DNA of 64,000 nt, from assembly GCF_010667575.1 (NCBI RefSeq), contig NZ_JAABNT010000002.1, positions 310,001-374,000 on the forward strand. The letters run 5' to 3'. The position numbers and the translations under genes are program-made. The stretch comes from Sulfitobacter sediminilitoris (lineage in GTDB: Bacteria > Pseudomonadota > Alphaproteobacteria > Rhodobacterales > Rhodobacteraceae). Of the stretch, positions 15,075 to 21,037 are shown piece after piece. The number at the start of each line of letters is the position of its first letter. Position 1 is the first letter of the stretch. Below the pieces are notes generated by a model. It was not told where the DNA came from, did no database searches, and saw only the letters and a program-made list of their open reading frames with translations.

Positions 15075-18000
15075 TCAGTTTGACACGTATCCGGCGACCA
15101 CCTGCAAGAGTTTGTAGGCTGTACGTGCGTCGCTGCCCACCACGTCAAGGAACTCTTCCGCGCCGATACGCAGGCAGGTCAGATCGGTCTTGGCGCGCAT
15201 ATCCAGCGCGCGCGGCACATTGCGGATCACCCCCAGTTCACCAACCAGCTTGCCGGGGCCCGATGTGACAATCAGCTTATCCTCTCCATCCTCGACAGGC
15301 AGGAGCAAATCCGCCTCACCCTCGACCACCAGAAAGGCGCCGCTGGTCGGATCATCGTCCTTGTGAAAGACGTATTCGCCCGCACTGGCAGAATACCACC
15401 GCGCCCCGAAGGCCAGCAAACGAAGCTGTTTGCGAGCAAGCCCTGAGAACAGGTCCGTCTGTTCCAGAGCCCGCAGTTTGCGCGCCAAATCGGCGCTGAC
15501 GGTGCTGTCCTCTTCTGTCGGCAAGTCTCCTCCCACGCTCGACATCCTTCCTTGCTGAAGCACGAACTGCGCATCGAAATCCGCAACATCCGCGAAACTC
15601 GGTTCCAGACAAATGATCGTTGAGTGCGGCAGCAACGTACGCAGTTTCATGTGCAGCGTGCTTCGGGTCTCTGCATCATAGCTCGACAATACGTTGTCGA
15701 GGATCAGCACCTGCGGCCGTTTGATGGTGGCCCGGCTGATGGCCAGCGTTTCGGTCAGCAGAGTTGGCAGATTGCCCCCACCCAACGTCAGCGGCATATC
15801 GAATATCAGGTCAAGCACCAGGCCATCCAGATCAGCATCATAAAGCGCACCAACAACGATTTGCCGCAGGTCATCGCCCTTTGCCCCCGCACTGTCAGCG
15901 ATCTTGCCGAAAAGGGCATTCTCCAACACCGTCAAACCGGCGACAGGTGCATCTTGCGAGATTGGTGTGAACACATCCCTGAGGCTCTTTTGCAATGCGG
16001 TCCCGTGTCTTTGACGGATCTCAAGAACTCTTTCGGTGATGTCTTGCGGAAAGGCTGACCCCAGCTTTTCGGCAGACATGGCAAAGGTGACGGCTAGCAT
16101 GATAGCCTTGTCCGTCGTGCTGAGTTCTTTGCCATCGCGGGTTTTTTCGCGCAGTTTTACGGCGGCTTCGAAGGTATCCGGATCGACGCCCAGCTTGCGG
16201 AACAGCGGGTGATCGGTGCCATCGACACCAAAGATCTGGCGCAGCAGATCAACCATATCGACCGCCAGTTGCAGCAGGTCAGCCTCAAGCCCCAGCTTGG
16301 ACAACAGGTCAATGAAATCTGTCTGACCTTCCAGAAGTGTTGCTGTCACTTTCTCGTTTGGGGTGGCGAAAATCAGATTCTCGGCAACGGGCAGTGCCGG
16401 GTTATAGACTTCTTTATCGAAAAAATGCACCTGCGCATCCAGATCCGCGGCACGGACACGATCGGCGATATCGGTGCGCAGCGATACAAGTGCGGCGGCC
16501 AGCGCATCATGTTCTTCTGGATCAAACCTTTGGTCGATGCCGCGTGCGAAGAGCGCCTGATCAATTTCCATGCCTTTAATCAGCTGTAGCCACCAGGCCC
16601 GCAATCCGGCATCACTGCTGGCTTCTTCGGCTTCGGGGTCGATCCACCGGGCATTGGGCAGATCAGTGCTGTTGCCCGCGCGTGCGCTTTCTTGCACGTC
16701 ATCGGAAGGATCGCCGTCCTCCACCGGTTTCAGCTTGAGCGGCAAAGCGATGTTGTCGCCAAAGCTGCCGACGAACATCACGGGCCGGGACGTGGCATAA
16801 CCAATGCGCTTGGCAATTGCCGCCTGATGCAATCCTGCCAAAGCATGCCCGGCGATGGAAACGCCCCCGGACGCCGGGACAAGTTCGCGCAACAGCACCT
16901 CGGAAAGGGCCCGTCGATCCTCATCACTTGGCGCGGTGATCGCAACTGTGCTGGCCGCGGCGAAGGTGACGTTGATATCTTCCAACACCATGTTCCCATC
17001 CGCGTCCTGAACGCTGATGCTATCCAGAACCACGTCACCATCCAGCGCGGGTATCTCACCCGGATCAGTTTCAAACAGATCACGGTCAATCATGCCATGG
17101 GGCGCGAAACGCTCGGTGATCGTCTCCCAGCGCAGCGCCATATCCTGACTTTGGTTATAGTAGGCCAACAGCTCTTTCCACGGGCTGGACAGATCCTTGT
17201 AGGCAGCAAGGGCGGCGACCAGAGCACCCACCGTCACTTCACCCGTGATCGTCAGATAGCCGCCGATAGAATAGAAGAAAAACGGCGTGAGCTGACCAAT
17301 GAAGTTGTTGATGAACTTCATGAAGAATTTCTTCTGGAAGATCTCGAACCGGATCGTGAACAAACGGCCAAGCCGGTCTGACACCAAGGCCATGCGGTAA
17401 CGCCATCCTCCGTTTGTGCGCAGGGTGCTGGCACCAACGGCTTTTTCCCCAATCTCGGCCGCAAGGGCGCGGATCTGGATCACACGTTTCTTGTTCAGCT
17501 GGTTGATCTGCTTTTGCAGTTTCGGGATCAGCCATGCCTGCAACGGGATCAGCGCACAGGCGGCCAGACCGAAGGCCACGCTTTGCAGGAACAGAAAGCC
17601 GAGGATCGTCAGCATCTGGCCTGCCTGCAACACGGGCTGCGCCACGGCATCGCCCATCAAACCGCCCATCGGTTCGGATTCGGAGGTCACCATCGACACA
17701 AGCTCGCCCTGGCTTGTCCGCTCAAAATAGGGGGCCGGGAACCTGAGAATGCGCGCAATCAGCGTATAGCGCAGACGCCTCAACAGACGCTCGGCCAACA
17801 CACCTTTCATGGTGTTGATCCGCATTTTCATGATGCCGTGTCCCAGCACCGAAATCAGGAAAAGCCCGCACAGCAGCATCAGAAAGCCGATCTGGCTCAG
17901 CTCGTAGCCGAAGACCGGCACCGTGTCCGAGCTGGCTCCGATAGCATCGTTGATGATCCGTTTGGGCAATTCCAGCGTGAGATACAGCAGCGGGAACAGC

Positions 18001-18113
18001 GTGAGCGTCACAGCCAGGAGGATCAGCTGATCGCGCTTGGAGTACTTCCAGATGAATGAGAAAAGACTGCGTTCTATGGGAAAGGTCCAATGTGTAATAT
18101 GGCAACGTCGCAC
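15075..18113 (-). CDS. ABC transporter-like permease with degenerate ATPase and C-terminal cyclic-nucleotide-binding domain
   Basis: A 1012-residue fusion. Residues about 20-330 are an exporter-type six-helix transmembrane domain. From about 360 an ABC nucleotide-binding domain begins, but its Walker A position (about 392-401) reads TAPSDEDRRA with no GxxGxGK. It is interrupted by an insert of roughly 270 residues (about 460-730). The signature is reduced to LTLGGGN (about 775-781), Walker B is QVLILDNVLS with Asn in place of the catalytic Glu, and the H-loop histidine position reads CLEPS. Residues about 885-1005 form a cNMP-binding domain with an apparently intact cassette (GELGVIRNVPRAL with its Glu and Arg). 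It therefore looks like an ATPase-dead, possibly cNMP-sensing membrane protein. The GTG start is uncertain: no good ribosome binding site is visible, and the protein may begin near residue 13. Confidence 0.85.
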   Translation of the reverse strand: MRRCHITHWTFPIERSLFSFIWKYSKRDQLILLAVTLTLFPLLYLTLELPKRIINDAIGASSDTVPVFGYELSQIGFLMLLCGLFLISVLGHGIMKMRINTMKGVLAERLLRRLRYTLIARILRFPAPYFERTSQGELVSMVTSESEPMGGLMGDAVAQPVLQAGQMLTILGFLFLQSVAFGLAACALIPLQAWLIPKLQKQINQLNKKRVIQIRALAAEIGEKAVGASTLRTNGGWRYRMALVSDRLGRLFTIRFEIFQKKFFMKFINNFIGQLTPFFFYSIGGYLTITGEVTVGALVAALAAYKDLSSPWKELLAYYNQSQDMALRWETITERFAPHGMIDRDLFETDPGEIPALDGDVVLDSISVQDADGNMVLEDINVTFAAASTVAITAPSDEDRRALSEVLLRELVPASGGVSIAGHALAGLHQAAIAKRIGYATSRPVMFVGSFGDNIALPLKLKPVEDGDPSDDVQESARAGNSTDLPNARWIDPEAEEASSDAGLRAWWLQLIKGMEIDQALFARGIDQRFDPEEHDALAAALVSLRTDIADRVRAADLDAQVHFFDKEVYNPALPVAENLIFATPNEKVTATLLEGQTDFIDLLSKLGLEADLLQLAVDMVDLLRQIFGVDGTDHPLFRKLGVDPDTFEAAVKLREKTRDGKELSTTDKAIMLAVTFAMSAEKLGSAFPQDITERVLEIRQRHGTALQKSLRDVFTPISQDAPVAGLTVLENALFGKIADSAGAKGDDLRQIVVGALYDADLDGLVLDLIFDMPLTLGGGNLPTLLTETLAISRATIKRPQVLILDNVLSSYDAETRSTLHMKLRTLLPHSTIICLEPSFADVADFDAQFVLQQGRMSSVGGDLPTEEDSTVSADLARKLRALEQTDLFSGLARKQLRLLAFGARWYSASAGEYVFHKDDDPTSGAFLVVEGEADLLLPVEDGEDKLIVTSGPGKLVGELGVIRNVPRALDMRAKTDLTCLRIGAEEFLDVVGSDARTAYKLLQVVAGYVSN

Positions 18114-18201
18114 TACACGCTTAGCAACTGCGTGCCTTGCAAATCAAATGATTTGCTCAAATAAGTTGATGGTCTAGGCTGCCTGAAAAGGAGGCAATGC
18201 A

Positions 18202-18591
18202 GTGACGGCAGTTCTACAGACAGCTTTGATCCTGCTTGTCCTGTTGCAAGTAAAGCATCTCTTTGCCGATTACTTTCTTCAAAGCAAGCGCATGTTGGCG
18301 GGGCGGGGAGAGTATCTGCATCTGGGACGCGCGCAGCACGCGGGCCTTCATGCGGTCCTGTCTGTCGTTGCGCTTTTGCTGGTCGGTGCGCCGTTACCGT
18401 TCACTCTTGTCCTCTGCGCTGCAGAGGGGATTCTGCATTACCATATCGACTGGGCCAAGGGCCGCCATGCTGACAAAACCAATCATGGACCTGCCGACGC
18501 CACCTATTGGCGCGCCTTTGGTGTGGACCAATTGCTGCATCAGCTGACCTATGTCGGAATGATCTGGGCCTGGGCAATCTACGCGGTCTGA
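18202..18591 (+). CDS. DUF3307 membrane protein
   Basis: A 129-residue protein with three or four hydrophobic helices and the DUF3307 pattern: QVKHLFADYFLQSK near residue 15, HAGLHAVLS near 47, HYHIDWAKGR near 82, and a closing DQLLHQLTY. Start is GTG, supported by AAGGAGG at ideal spacing. The family has no established biochemical function; the conserved His/Asp residues inside membrane segments are suggestive but unexplained. It is divergent from the degenerate ABC gene with an 88-bp shared upstream region. Confidence 0.85.
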   Translation: MTAVLQTALILLVLLQVKHLFADYFLQSKRMLAGRGEYLHLGRAQHAGLHAVLSVVALLLVGAPLPFTLVLCAAEGILHYHIDWAKGRHADKTNHGPADATYWRAFGVDQLLHQLTYVGMIWAWAIYAV

Positions 18592-18859: not shown

Positions 18860-21037
18860 ATGTCAGTGATGACGCTTTCAGGTCTTCAAAAGACCGGTCT
18901 TTTCGTCTCTCAGGATATGTTCGGTGCGAACGCAGTGTTCAGCCTCACTGATGATGGTGTTCCAACCGCCGAATATGAAGCTGCGGCAGATGCCCTTGGT
19001 GTTCAGAACATTCGGTTCGGCGGCGGTCAGGCTGACCTTGATCCTGACAAGCCAAACGATGCCGGTGATCTGCCGATCGATGGGGTCAGTTCAATCAATA
19101 TCGTTGAGATGGACGGCGGCGCATTGCGTCCGGAACTGGTCAATTTCCTTGAGTGGTGCGCGGCAACGGAGGGTACGAACCAACCGGTCAAAACCACACT
19201 GATCATCCCCACGAAACACCTGACCTCAGAGGAATATGTCGCCTTTGCCGATGAGATTGAGGTTTTCGTCACCAAGGTGATGGCAGAATACGGGGACGTG
19301 ATTGCCGCCTTCCAGATTGGCAATGAACATTGGGAAATGGGCGAAACAGCTTACGGCATCAAGGCATCCATTGGCGCCGAAGCGATTGAGAAAGGCATGC
19401 TTGCCGCCGGGGTCAGCATTGACAACCAGCCCGATATCCTTGTCCAGATGGCGACGGCGGGAAACGAAGGGTCAGAATTTCCAGCCGTCTCAGGCGTCTC
19501 TGACTTTGTTGCCCGCAACAAGGCAGCGAACGAACAGGTGATTGCGCAGCTGAGCAACGCGGCCAGAGAGGCCATCGACGGCGTGACCGAGCATTATTAC
19601 TATAACAAGACAGATTTCGCTTTCCCGGACACAGATGCTGCCGTCAAGAACATCGACAAGGACTTTCGGGTCTGGTCAGACGCTTTCGACAAGGACCTTG
19701 ATCTGCACATCACCGAATGGAATGTGAAAACATCTGCCACCACGCAGCAGGGCATGGTGGCCGCATCCAGCCTGATCAAACAGTTCGAGAATATGATCGA
19801 AATCGGGGCCGATGGCGCGCACATCTGGGCGATCGATTATCATTCGCGCACCGCACTGACCCTAGATACGGATAATGGTGCGCGCTTGGATGATCAGGGG
19901 CGGCTGACAAATTCTGTCCAAGGTGCTGCGTTTGATCTCATGGCAGATGCCCTTGCCGGCAAAGAACTGATCTCGACTTCTTTTGCAAACGGCATACCAG
20001 AGATTGAGGTTTCCGCCTATGCATCGGCAGAGGAGGTTGTGTTCTACATCTCTTCCCGCACTTTGGATCAGACCAGATTTACGCTTGATCTGGCCCGTAA
20101 ACTGCCAGCAGTTGGGCCAGTTCAGGCCGTCCAAATGGCGATGGACCCGGCCTCATCAAACGGCAAGCAATGGGAACAGGGTGTGGATGCCGATAGTGTG
20201 CTGATCGAGGGCCAGCCTTATTTCTACAACGAACATGATATTGATGTGATCCTGACCGATCTTGTGTTCGAGGATGCCAGTCAAATCGAACTGACGCTGA
20301 ACCCGTTTGAAGTGGTCGAACTGACCGTCGATCTGAAACCAAAAGATGTCCAAGAAAATCTCAAAGAGATCGACGAGCCGAAGCCGGCGGAGTCACCGAA
20401 GGAAGAAATGACTGTCGAGAACCAATACGTTCTTGGGACAGACGAAGACGATTTGATCGATCTGATGCCGAACCTGGTCTACATCGACAGTGGTGCTGGT
20501 CTGGATACGGTCTTCGTCGATGCCCTCAGCACAGAGGCAACCGTCAAAGTGGACGGTTACGGCAAACCTGTGATGATCACCGAAGGTTTGCCCAATGAGG
20601 TTACCCTTGCCAATGTGGAACGGGTCGAATTCCTTGATGGTACGCTTGCGTTCGACACGGAGGGCAACAGCGGTCAGGCCTACCGGCTGTATCAGGCCAG
20701 TTTTGACCGCACCCCTGACGCCGCAGGTCTGGAGTTTTGGGTCAAGCAGCTGGACTGCGGTGCATTTTCACTCAAAGAAGTCGCGTCACATTTCCTGAAA
20801 TCGGCCGAGTTTGAGAGCGCTTACGGAAAGAACGAAAAACTGTCGGATACGCAATTTGTTGATCTGCTTTATCAAAATGTGCTGGATCGGCAGCCAGATC
20901 CAGAAGGCTACGCCTTCTGGTGCGAGCAGCAGGAAAACAACCTCTCGCGCGAGCAAATGCTGGTTTCGTTTTCCGAGAGTGTTGAGAATAAGTCCAATGT
21001 TTCATCAGCCATCGACGATGGGATTTGGTACACCTGA
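18860..21037 (+). CDS. Glycoside-hydrolase-like protein with C-terminal DUF4214 domain, probably secreted
   Basis: A 725-residue acidic protein without signal peptide. Residues about 1-400 look like a retaining clan-A type TIM barrel: FQIGNEHWEMG places a candidate acid/base Glu near 156 and LHITEWNV a candidate nucleophile Glu near 286. A beta-rich segment follows, then a charged linker (about 490-520), a short RTX-like stretch (VLGTDEDDLIDL ... DSGAGLDTVFV), and a DUF4214 domain from about 610 (AYRLYQASFDRTPDAAGLEFW, repeated once as LYQNVLDRQPDPEGYAFW). Acidic, cysteine-poor proteins ending this way are often exported by type I secretion, which I infer here. GAGGTAG precedes the start. Substrate unknown; an arabinofuranosidase- or xylosidase-like activity is possible. 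No secretion genes are nearby. Confidence 0.75.
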   Translation: MSVMTLSGLQKTGLFVSQDMFGANAVFSLTDDGVPTAEYEAAADALGVQNIRFGGGQADLDPDKPNDAGDLPIDGVSSINIVEMDGGALRPELVNFLEWCAATEGTNQPVKTTLIIPTKHLTSEEYVAFADEIEVFVTKVMAEYGDVIAAFQIGNEHWEMGETAYGIKASIGAEAIEKGMLAAGVSIDNQPDILVQMATAGNEGSEFPAVSGVSDFVARNKAANEQVIAQLSNAAREAIDGVTEHYYYNKTDFAFPDTDAAVKNIDKDFRVWSDAFDKDLDLHITEWNVKTSATTQQGMVAASSLIKQFENMIEIGADGAHIWAIDYHSRTALTLDTDNGARLDDQGRLTNSVQGAAFDLMADALAGKELISTSFANGIPEIEVSAYASAEEVVFYISSRTLDQTRFTLDLARKLPAVGPVQAVQMAMDPASSNGKQWEQGVDADSVLIEGQPYFYNEHDIDVILTDLVFEDASQIELTLNPFEVVELTVDLKPKDVQENLKEIDEPKPAESPKEEMTVENQYVLGTDEDDLIDLMPNLVYIDSGAGLDTVFVDALSTEATVKVDGYGKPVMITEGLPNEVTLANVERVEFLDGTLAFDTEGNSGQAYRLYQASFDRTPDAAGLEFWVKQLDCGAFSLKEVASHFLKSAEFESAYGKNEKLSDTQFVDLLYQNVLDRQPDPEGYAFWCEQQENNLSREQMLVSFSESVENKSNVSSAIDDGIWYT

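Follow-up and report, generated by a model that had tools for sequence, protein, structure and literature searches.

The window analysed here, 64,000 nucleotides of Sulfitobacter sediminilitoris (contig NZ_JAABNT010000002.1, positions 310,001 to 374,000), carries a gene for a membrane protein that joins an ATP-binding cassette (ABC) exporter-like body, comprising a transmembrane domain and a nucleotide-binding domain (NBD), to a C-terminal cyclic-nucleotide-binding (cNMP) domain. ABC exporters are the standard example of transport coupled to ATP. The window protein has their fold, but on the features tested it falls outside the ATP-driven exporters: its ATP site is dead by sequence, and the loss is conserved across genera as a family trait. 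It is probably a signal-controlled gate or receptor rather than an ATP-driven pump. Because the dead site is conserved, a nucleotide-sensing domain regularly accompanies the membrane protein, and relatives free of an NBD exist, our leading reading, to which we give somewhat less than an even chance, is that of an ABC-exporter-derived protein that would act independently of ATP as a nucleotide-controlled gate or transporter. Public records call such proteins "ABC transporter transmembrane domain-containing protein", "ABC transporter ATP-binding protein" or "ATP-binding cassette domain-containing protein", and name the partner "cyclic nucleotide-binding domain-containing protein" or "Crp/Fnr family transcriptional regulator"; these names reveal neither the loss of the ATP site nor the pairing with a cNMP domain.

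In the list of open reading frames the gene comprises 1012 open codons from a GTG to the stop. The match of many relatives begins at residue 12 or 13 of the window protein, so translation may in fact begin a few codons downstream of this GTG. A full exporter transmembrane domain, as claimed in the original prediction, was recovered by Pfam (ABC_membrane, PF00664, residues 52-302, E 1.4e-18, 68 bits against a cut-off of 28), as was the cNMP domain (cNMP_binding, PF00027, residues 910-993, E 7.7e-15, 55.1 bits against 27.5), while ABC_tran remained sub-threshold (E 0.13, 13.3 bits against 25). The best NCBIfam match was MsbA (TIGR02203) at 114 bits, its cut-off of 602 not being reached, and the SbmA/BacA family was absent from the four Pfam families of the protein at E up to 1. 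Profiles of solved structures in the PDB matched exporters of the ABCB1, bacteriocin and TM_0288 types, with residues 745-856 matching the second NBD of ABCB1. Repeats at the DNA level within the gene are short.

For comparison we used relatives from a genome-collection scan, which found 188; the best 80 were kept, all assigned by title to Rhodobacteraceae or Rhodobacterales genera or bins except one labelled "Alphaproteobacteria" only. The Rhodobacteraceae set of 86 rows consists of the window protein, a paralogue from the same genome, 79 of the 80 kept loci and five loci from the same genus or family. Rows here and below are related sequences, and their counts are not independent events. The omitted locus (L046, CATOSU010000003.1) has its frame split into 543 and 463 codons, perhaps by a sequencing error or because the gene is broken, and is the sole such case among the 80. 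The paralogue lies at about 11400-14550 of contig C45 and has 1052 amino acids, 49% identity, the same architecture and equally degenerate motifs; it carries two labels, L009 and L146, and the motif tables include it once, the counts of cNMP fusion twice.

In the window protein TAPSDEDRRA occupies the Walker A site, Ser442 stands at the position of the Q-loop Gln, the signature site reads LGGGNLPTLLTE, Walker B is LILDN with Asn807 replacing the catalytic Glu, and the H-loop site reads LEPSF. The degeneracy of all five motifs proposed originally thus holds for Walker A, the Q-loop, the signature and the H-loop, whereas Walker B is only half lost: its first acid, Asp806, is retained, and Asp is found there in 42 of the 86 rows. 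Across the Rhodobacteraceae set the Walker A Lys, the catalytic Glu, the H-loop His and the Q-loop Gln were each present in 0/86 rows, as expected if the degeneracy is conserved across genera, and the Walker A Ser/Thr was retained in two. The replacement P-loop is itself conserved. When L142 and the second entry of the paralogue (L146) were added to give 88 rows, 80 had Glu398, 87 an acid at 399, 86 Arg400 and 87 Ala402; L142 is the third copy in a genome of the same genus (G154) and is too divergent to group with the Rhodobacteraceae rows. Altogether 79 other frames of more than 950 amino acids, including the paralogue, can be aligned with the window protein over its length at about 48-81% identity. 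As all of these show the degenerate sites and have much of the replacement sequence in common, the motif loss predicted for the window protein is not due to chance.

The gene is under purifying selection, as judged from substitution patterns, and is no pseudogene, in agreement with what had been concluded from the intact frame. Compared with five Sulfitobacter relatives the ratio of nonsynonymous to synonymous divergence (dN/dS) was between 0.08 and 0.15 overall (0.082, 0.101, 0.096, 0.148 and 0.116), values that are rough given a dS of 1.4-1.9, which puts synonymous sites near saturation. Broken down by domain and relative, dN/dS was at most 0.19 in every computable cell, dS not being computable in four. 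Constraint is strongest in the transmembrane domain, where 187 of 328 positions (57%) were at least 95% conserved over 80 rows. The share was 41% for the linker, 36% for the cNMP domain, 26% and 25% for the two halves of the NBD and 17% for the NBD insert described below. In ordinary exporters the pattern is the reverse, and the membrane domain is not the most conserved part.

The cNMP domain is a regular partner of the exporter-like protein, either fused to it or encoded by the next gene. It is fused in 86/86 Rhodobacteraceae loci, where the cassette Gly and Arg968 are invariant (86/86 each) and the Glu959 site holds Glu in 82 rows and Asp in four, so that the retention of Glu and Arg noted in the original prediction extends to the clade. 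We also assembled a wider set of 113 rows, comprising 112 frames of at least 780 amino acids from outside the family Rhodobacteraceae plus L142. A cNMP domain accompanies 106 of these: eight, including L142, are fused, 88 have a same-strand gene at most 400 bp downstream, and a further ten have a same-strand match whose frame, taken from stop to stop, overlaps or lies further off; seven are without one. The stand-alone proteins carry the cassette pattern GExxxL..R[STAQV]A in 95/98 cases, and 93/98 have 146-193 amino acids under a crude choice of start; Pfam scans of two of them found no DNA-binding domain. Plasmid records show both arrangements: an exporter-like gene paired with a stand-alone cNMP gene in Rhizobium, a "Crp/Fnr" partner gene adjoining the match in Sinorhizobium (the exporter-like gene itself being missing from the feature table), and the fused form in Azospirillum. 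In a midpoint-rooted tree fused members fall on both sides of the root, and this tree favours neither fusion nor fission as the direction of change. Cyclic nucleotides are plausible ligands of the window protein, since PF00211, the class III nucleotide cyclase family, is matched 74 times in its own genome (G000, 4.86 Mb). This number seems very high for one genome, and some of the matches are perhaps fragments on short contigs.

The NBD is split, as originally proposed, by an insert; the roughly 270 residues estimated then compare with about 270-300 found, spanning from about residue 465 to 735-765. An insert profile (A1) built from residues 470-770 of seven rows matched 131 of 385 alphaproteobacterial genomes at 138 places. 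Eight of these places are in the own family and 130 elsewhere, the latter comprising the 112 frames of the wider set, L166, which is truncated at the edge of its contig, and 17 places, left out here, where the match scored low or was only partial. In a sample of the own family the profile matched 31/149 genomes, 22 of which carry two or more copies. In a phylum sample it matched 31/398, all 31 being Alphaproteobacteria, the share of genomes from outside the class among the 398 not being stated. In 40 kb taken from the S. meliloti 1021 record, where no features are annotated, there were weak ABC matches only, and the family was not found. Counting all loci, 199/201 have a frame of at least 780 amino acids, the exceptions being L046 and L166.

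No solved structure matched the insert at E up to 10. Profile comparison of its segments detected one clear internal repeat, unit B (residues 540-650) against unit C (695-790), with a probability of 98.7 and E 2e-15, where E-values are those of single comparisons uncalibrated on shuffles. The other non-overlapping pairs (A-B, A-C, A-M, C-N and M-N) scored a probability of 8.6 or less, and the pairs A-N, B-M, B-N and C-M share residues and are therefore uninformative. Segment A, around the Q-loop, was considered as a further copy of B; the match was weak (probability 2.3, E 0.007) and only the B-C duplication is claimed. The repeated element, FDxxxYNPxxxVxENLLFG, resembles the stretch after the Q-loop in ordinary NBDs, and models of normal NBDs (CydC, PhnT and PstB) align to unit C from residues 708-726 on. 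We infer that part of the helical subdomain was duplicated and that this gave rise to the insert.

Outside the Rhodobacteraceae the loss is graded. In the wider set the Walker A Lys is kept in 73/113 rows, Ser/Thr in 7, the first Walker B Asp in 14, the catalytic Glu in 67, the H-loop His in 42 and the Q-loop Gln in 25. The place of the Mg-binding Ser/Thr is taken by Asp or Glu in 93/113, and a signature-like LSxAQRQK is kept in most rows. Homologues with intact Walker A and B, named in the original prediction as counter-evidence, were thus absent from the 86 Rhodobacteraceae rows but not from the wider set, where one row in 113, L125 (GDGNSGKT, LDEAT, HR), combines Lys, Thr, Asp, Glu and His, its Q-loop Gln being missing; L137 has Lys, Ser, Asp and Glu and lacks the His. 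L125 sits inside degenerate sisters (tree support 1.0), and for this reason either the ATP site was lost repeatedly or it was regained in L125. The insert is also found in L125 (class-scan genome G247), so it does not require a dead site. These grades would fit an Alphaproteobacteria-wide nucleotide-gated family derived from an ABC exporter, with a duplicated, non-catalytic NBD, a CRP-type sensor replacing ATP and NBD-free side branches, a generalization that we regard as possible but doubtful.

Some relatives lack the NBD altogether, and they are the strongest hint of an ATP-free use of the membrane domain. The 149 genomes of the family sample contain 29 frames of fewer than 510 amino acids that match the membrane domain, some of which are interrupted by a stop or lie at the end of a contig. 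Of these we checked 20, from 18 genomes: all 20 have 323-499 amino acids with no NBD in the frame, and an ATPase-type neighbour stands beside one. Two belong to the own genome (L251 and L252, C56:184785-185747 and C1:251630-252379, 356 and 367 amino acids). Plasmids of Phaeobacter (L247 5773-7077, 434 amino acids) and Dinoroseobacter (L248 4653-5915, 420 amino acids) also encode the membrane domain alone, within copper-related clusters containing a copper oxidase, a copper-binding protein and cytochrome c; this location suggests a metal or redox role for the plasmid-borne branch. A membrane-domain tree of 22 sequences with one distant outgroup joined the separate and fused forms with a support of 0.22, so that the placement of the NBD-less forms in it is tentative.

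Upstream of the window gene lies a divergent DUF3307 gene, found at 76 of 81 Rhodobacteraceae loci with a gap below 600 bp in 75; of the five exceptions one (L073) is truncated where its contig stops. Among loci from the genome-sample scan, L143 and L145 alone have DUF3307. A literature search on DUF3307, with most subscription journals and preprints outside its scope, returned a single phage paper. At three paralogue loci (L140, L144 and L146, assigned by Pfam at L146 only) an Rce1-like gene takes the place of DUF3307. In the own genome this gene, for a membrane protein of the CAAX-protease family, follows the paralogue; it is seen beside the paralogue at 3/7 of the Rhodobacteraceae loci fetched with long flanks. 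Downstream of the DUF3307 gene, at 18860-21037 of the window, a 725-amino-acid frame has a C-terminal repeat that we take to be DUF4214-like and is likely a secreted repeat module.

Different neighbours were seen at 36 non-Rhodobacteraceae loci of about 16-23 kb. Group-1 glycosyltransferases occur at 28/36, a second glycosyltransferase type at 29/36 (a label for which two Rhizobium proteins exceeded the Pfam cut-off and two other proteins fell below it), either of them at 29/36, a histidine phosphatase at 24/36, a methyltransferase at 19/36 and a cNMP domain, fused or separate, at 36/36. Five of the seven loci without glycosyltransferases are fused forms. A further neighbour (c3) had been judged by eye to be a polysaccharide deacetylase; no Pfam family was found for it and the label was not used. 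Near the glycosyltransferase and ABC-like/cNMP genes on the Sinorhizobium, Azospirillum and Rhizobium plasmids (L244, L245 and L249) there is also a four-gene ABC importer with a substrate-binding protein of about 619-635 amino acids.

Under the reading that we favour, an ATP-independent gate or transporter under nucleotide control, the window protein would sit in the inner membrane as an exporter-like dimer. Its dead NBD with the insert would serve as a transmission and docking body linking the membrane domain to the sensor, and nucleotide bound by the C-terminal domain would make the membrane domain switch from its closed state to its open one or back. Any cargo would move downhill or be ion-driven, in the manner of SbmA, instead of being driven by ATP, and as relatives with a separate cNMP gene sit near glycosyltransferases, it would most likely be lipid-linked or glycan-related, a guess from neighbourhoods. 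Several points weigh against parts of this scheme. None of the five tested neighbour types of the glycosyltransferase clusters occurs within flanks of up to 5 kb at any of 80 Rhodobacteraceae loci, so the inference on cargo may not carry over to the window protein. No cNMP match was detected in the fetched stretches of 20/20 NBD-less relatives, and the sensor is thus not needed for every use of the membrane domain. The residue two past the cassette Arg is usually Ala; it is Leu in 86/86 Rhodobacteraceae rows, for which reason the ligand may be neither cyclic AMP (cAMP) nor cyclic GMP (cGMP). The constraint on the membrane domain may instead reflect a surface on which proteins dock, and members of the wider family, with Lys in 73/113 and Glu in 67/113, may bind ATP without hydrolysing it.

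The original prediction also suggested that the protein may be a cNMP-gated receptor or scaffold and not a transporter. Its premises, a dead ATP site and a regular cNMP partner, stand. The receptor reading itself is not established, because the membrane domain is the most constrained part and relatives consisting of this domain alone exist. In such a receptor the membrane domain would transport nothing and serve only to anchor and dimerise the protein, and the signal would be relayed to the DUF3307 protein, the Rce1-like protein found beside some paralogues or glycosyltransferases. The dead NBD, the sensor at 86/86 Rhodobacteraceae loci, the DUF3307 neighbour at 76/81 and the Rce1-like gene beside the paralogue at 3/7 of the long-flank Rhodobacteraceae loci all agree with this. 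However, a membrane domain that is the most conserved part, and that persists in NBD-less relatives with no detected cNMP domain, suggests that it does something itself. We consider ATP-independent transport or gating at least as likely as a receptor or scaffold, and the latter a possibility of the second rank. A gene in slow decay, its role gone, would account for the degenerate motifs and the split frame of L046, but it is very improbable in view of a dN/dS of at most 0.19, the long frames at 199/201 loci and the multiple copies in 22/31 genomes.

Two further explanations keep a role for ATP. The protein could be one half of a heterodimeric exporter in which an intact partner encoded elsewhere supplies the working site, an arrangement well documented for exporters with one degenerate site (PMC7756269), and one that would suit the wider set, most of which keeps LSxAQRQK and much of which keeps Glu (67/113) and Lys (73/113). 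We nevertheless consider it unlikely, as no conserved exporter partner lies nearby and NBD-less relatives exist: with the family itself and stand-alone cNMP genes excluded and distant genes outside the search, a full-length profile found one foreign exporter frame (L141, 609 amino acids) and one ATPase-type frame (L144) across 40 loci of 9.7-17 kb and 81 Rhodobacteraceae loci, a greedy choice of frames having hidden the focal gene in four of the 40 and possibly some neighbours as well. Alternatively, the altered P-loop could act as an ATP-binding switch without hydrolysis, competing or cooperating with the cNMP signal, an explanation that we regard as quite improbable. It would be most plausible for relatives of about 900 amino acids carrying GxGGSGK[E/D], since Lys in 73/113 rows is combined with an Asp or Glu for Ser/Thr swap (93/113) consistent enough to suggest use. 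Against it, Lys is lost in 86/86 rows of the window clade, where the acidic loop (EED) should repel phosphates.

Table 1. Features of the window gene and its divergent neighbour (coordinates are positions in the window)
Feature	Position	Strand	Evidence
Window gene, ABC-exporter-like and cNMP-binding fusion, 1012 amino acids	15075..18113	-	open frame, Pfam, related loci
Exporter transmembrane domain, residues 13-340	17094..18077	-	PF00664 at 52-302; conservation
NBD N-terminal half, degenerate, residues 358-460	16734..17042	-	alignment; ABC_tran E 0.13
Walker A (P-loop) site, degenerate, residues 394-401; PSEEDRRA-type in much of clade	16911..16934	-	motif columns
Q-loop site, residues 436-449, Gln replaced (Ser442)	16767..16808	-	alignment, motif columns
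Insert region, family marker, residues 470-765	15819..16706	-	profile A1 (residues 470-770)
Internal repeat unit B, residues 540-650, FDxxxYNPxxPVxENLLFxxP	16164..16496	-	profile match to unit C
Internal repeat unit C, residues 695-790, extends into signature region	15744..16031	-	profile match to unit B
NBD C-terminal half, degenerate (signature, Walker B and H-loop sites), residues 766-860	15534..15818	-	alignment
Walker B site VLILDN, residues 802-807, catalytic Glu replaced	15693..15710	-	motif columns
H-loop site, residues 836-840, His replaced	15594..15608	-	motif columns
Linker and cNMP-binding domain, residues 865-1012	15078..15521	-	PF00027 at 910-993
Divergent intergenic region, 88 bp, shared with DUF3307 gene	18114..18201	.	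frame coordinates
DUF3307 gene (PF11750), conserved divergent neighbour	18202..18591	+	Pfam E 2.2e-10

The components of this system are known: ABC exporters, cNMP domains, degenerate ATP sites and NBD-free exporters. A literature search at the level of titles and abstracts, with most subscription journals and preprints outside its scope, returned no description of their combination into a graded, conserved family that extends through the Alphaproteobacteria. An ATP site erased under purifying selection in a widespread family, with its grades visible across a class and a nucleotide sensor retained as partner, offers a natural experiment in the conversion of a pump into a gate or receptor, and the family is a candidate membrane effector of nucleotide signalling in roseobacters and rhizobia.

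With the Type IV ABC exporters (MsbA, ABCB1, and the peptidase-containing and NHLP types) the window protein shares the order of transmembrane domain and NBD; it differs from them in that the catalytic motifs are gone, the NBD insert is duplicated and a cNMP domain is fused or adjacent. TIGR03896 (cyc_nuc_ocin), a cNMP-type protein tied by its name to a bacteriocin-type exporter, resembles the stand-alone partner, but the Rhizobium partner is a non-member (E 3e-11, 43 bits against a cut-off of 161). The exporter associated with TIGR03896 is assumed to be active. SbmA is not known to carry an NBD remnant or a cNMP domain. It is described as an ABC-type membrane domain without an NBD that is driven by the proton gradient (PMC13316013), so that SbmA/BacA (SLiPT) proteins parallel the mode proposed for the window protein, a membrane domain of this type working without ATP. 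Pdr5, as portrayed in PMC7756269, has Asn for the catalytic Glu and has lost the H-loop His. Exporters with one degenerate site thus share the kinds of substitution seen in the window protein but keep a working site (PMC7756269), whereas the window protein encodes none and has no conserved partner nearby. HetC of Nostoc also combines an exporter fold with a CRP-type nucleotide-sensing domain; according to PMC10986499 this cNMP domain is required for function and has ppGpp as its ligand, cAMP is not bound and canonical ligands failed to bind. HetC differs in the N-terminal position of its cNMP and peptidase domains and in an essential catalytic residue in its ATPase domain (PMC10986499). By analogy with HetC, the cNMP domain of the window family could bind ppGpp in place of a cyclic nucleotide.

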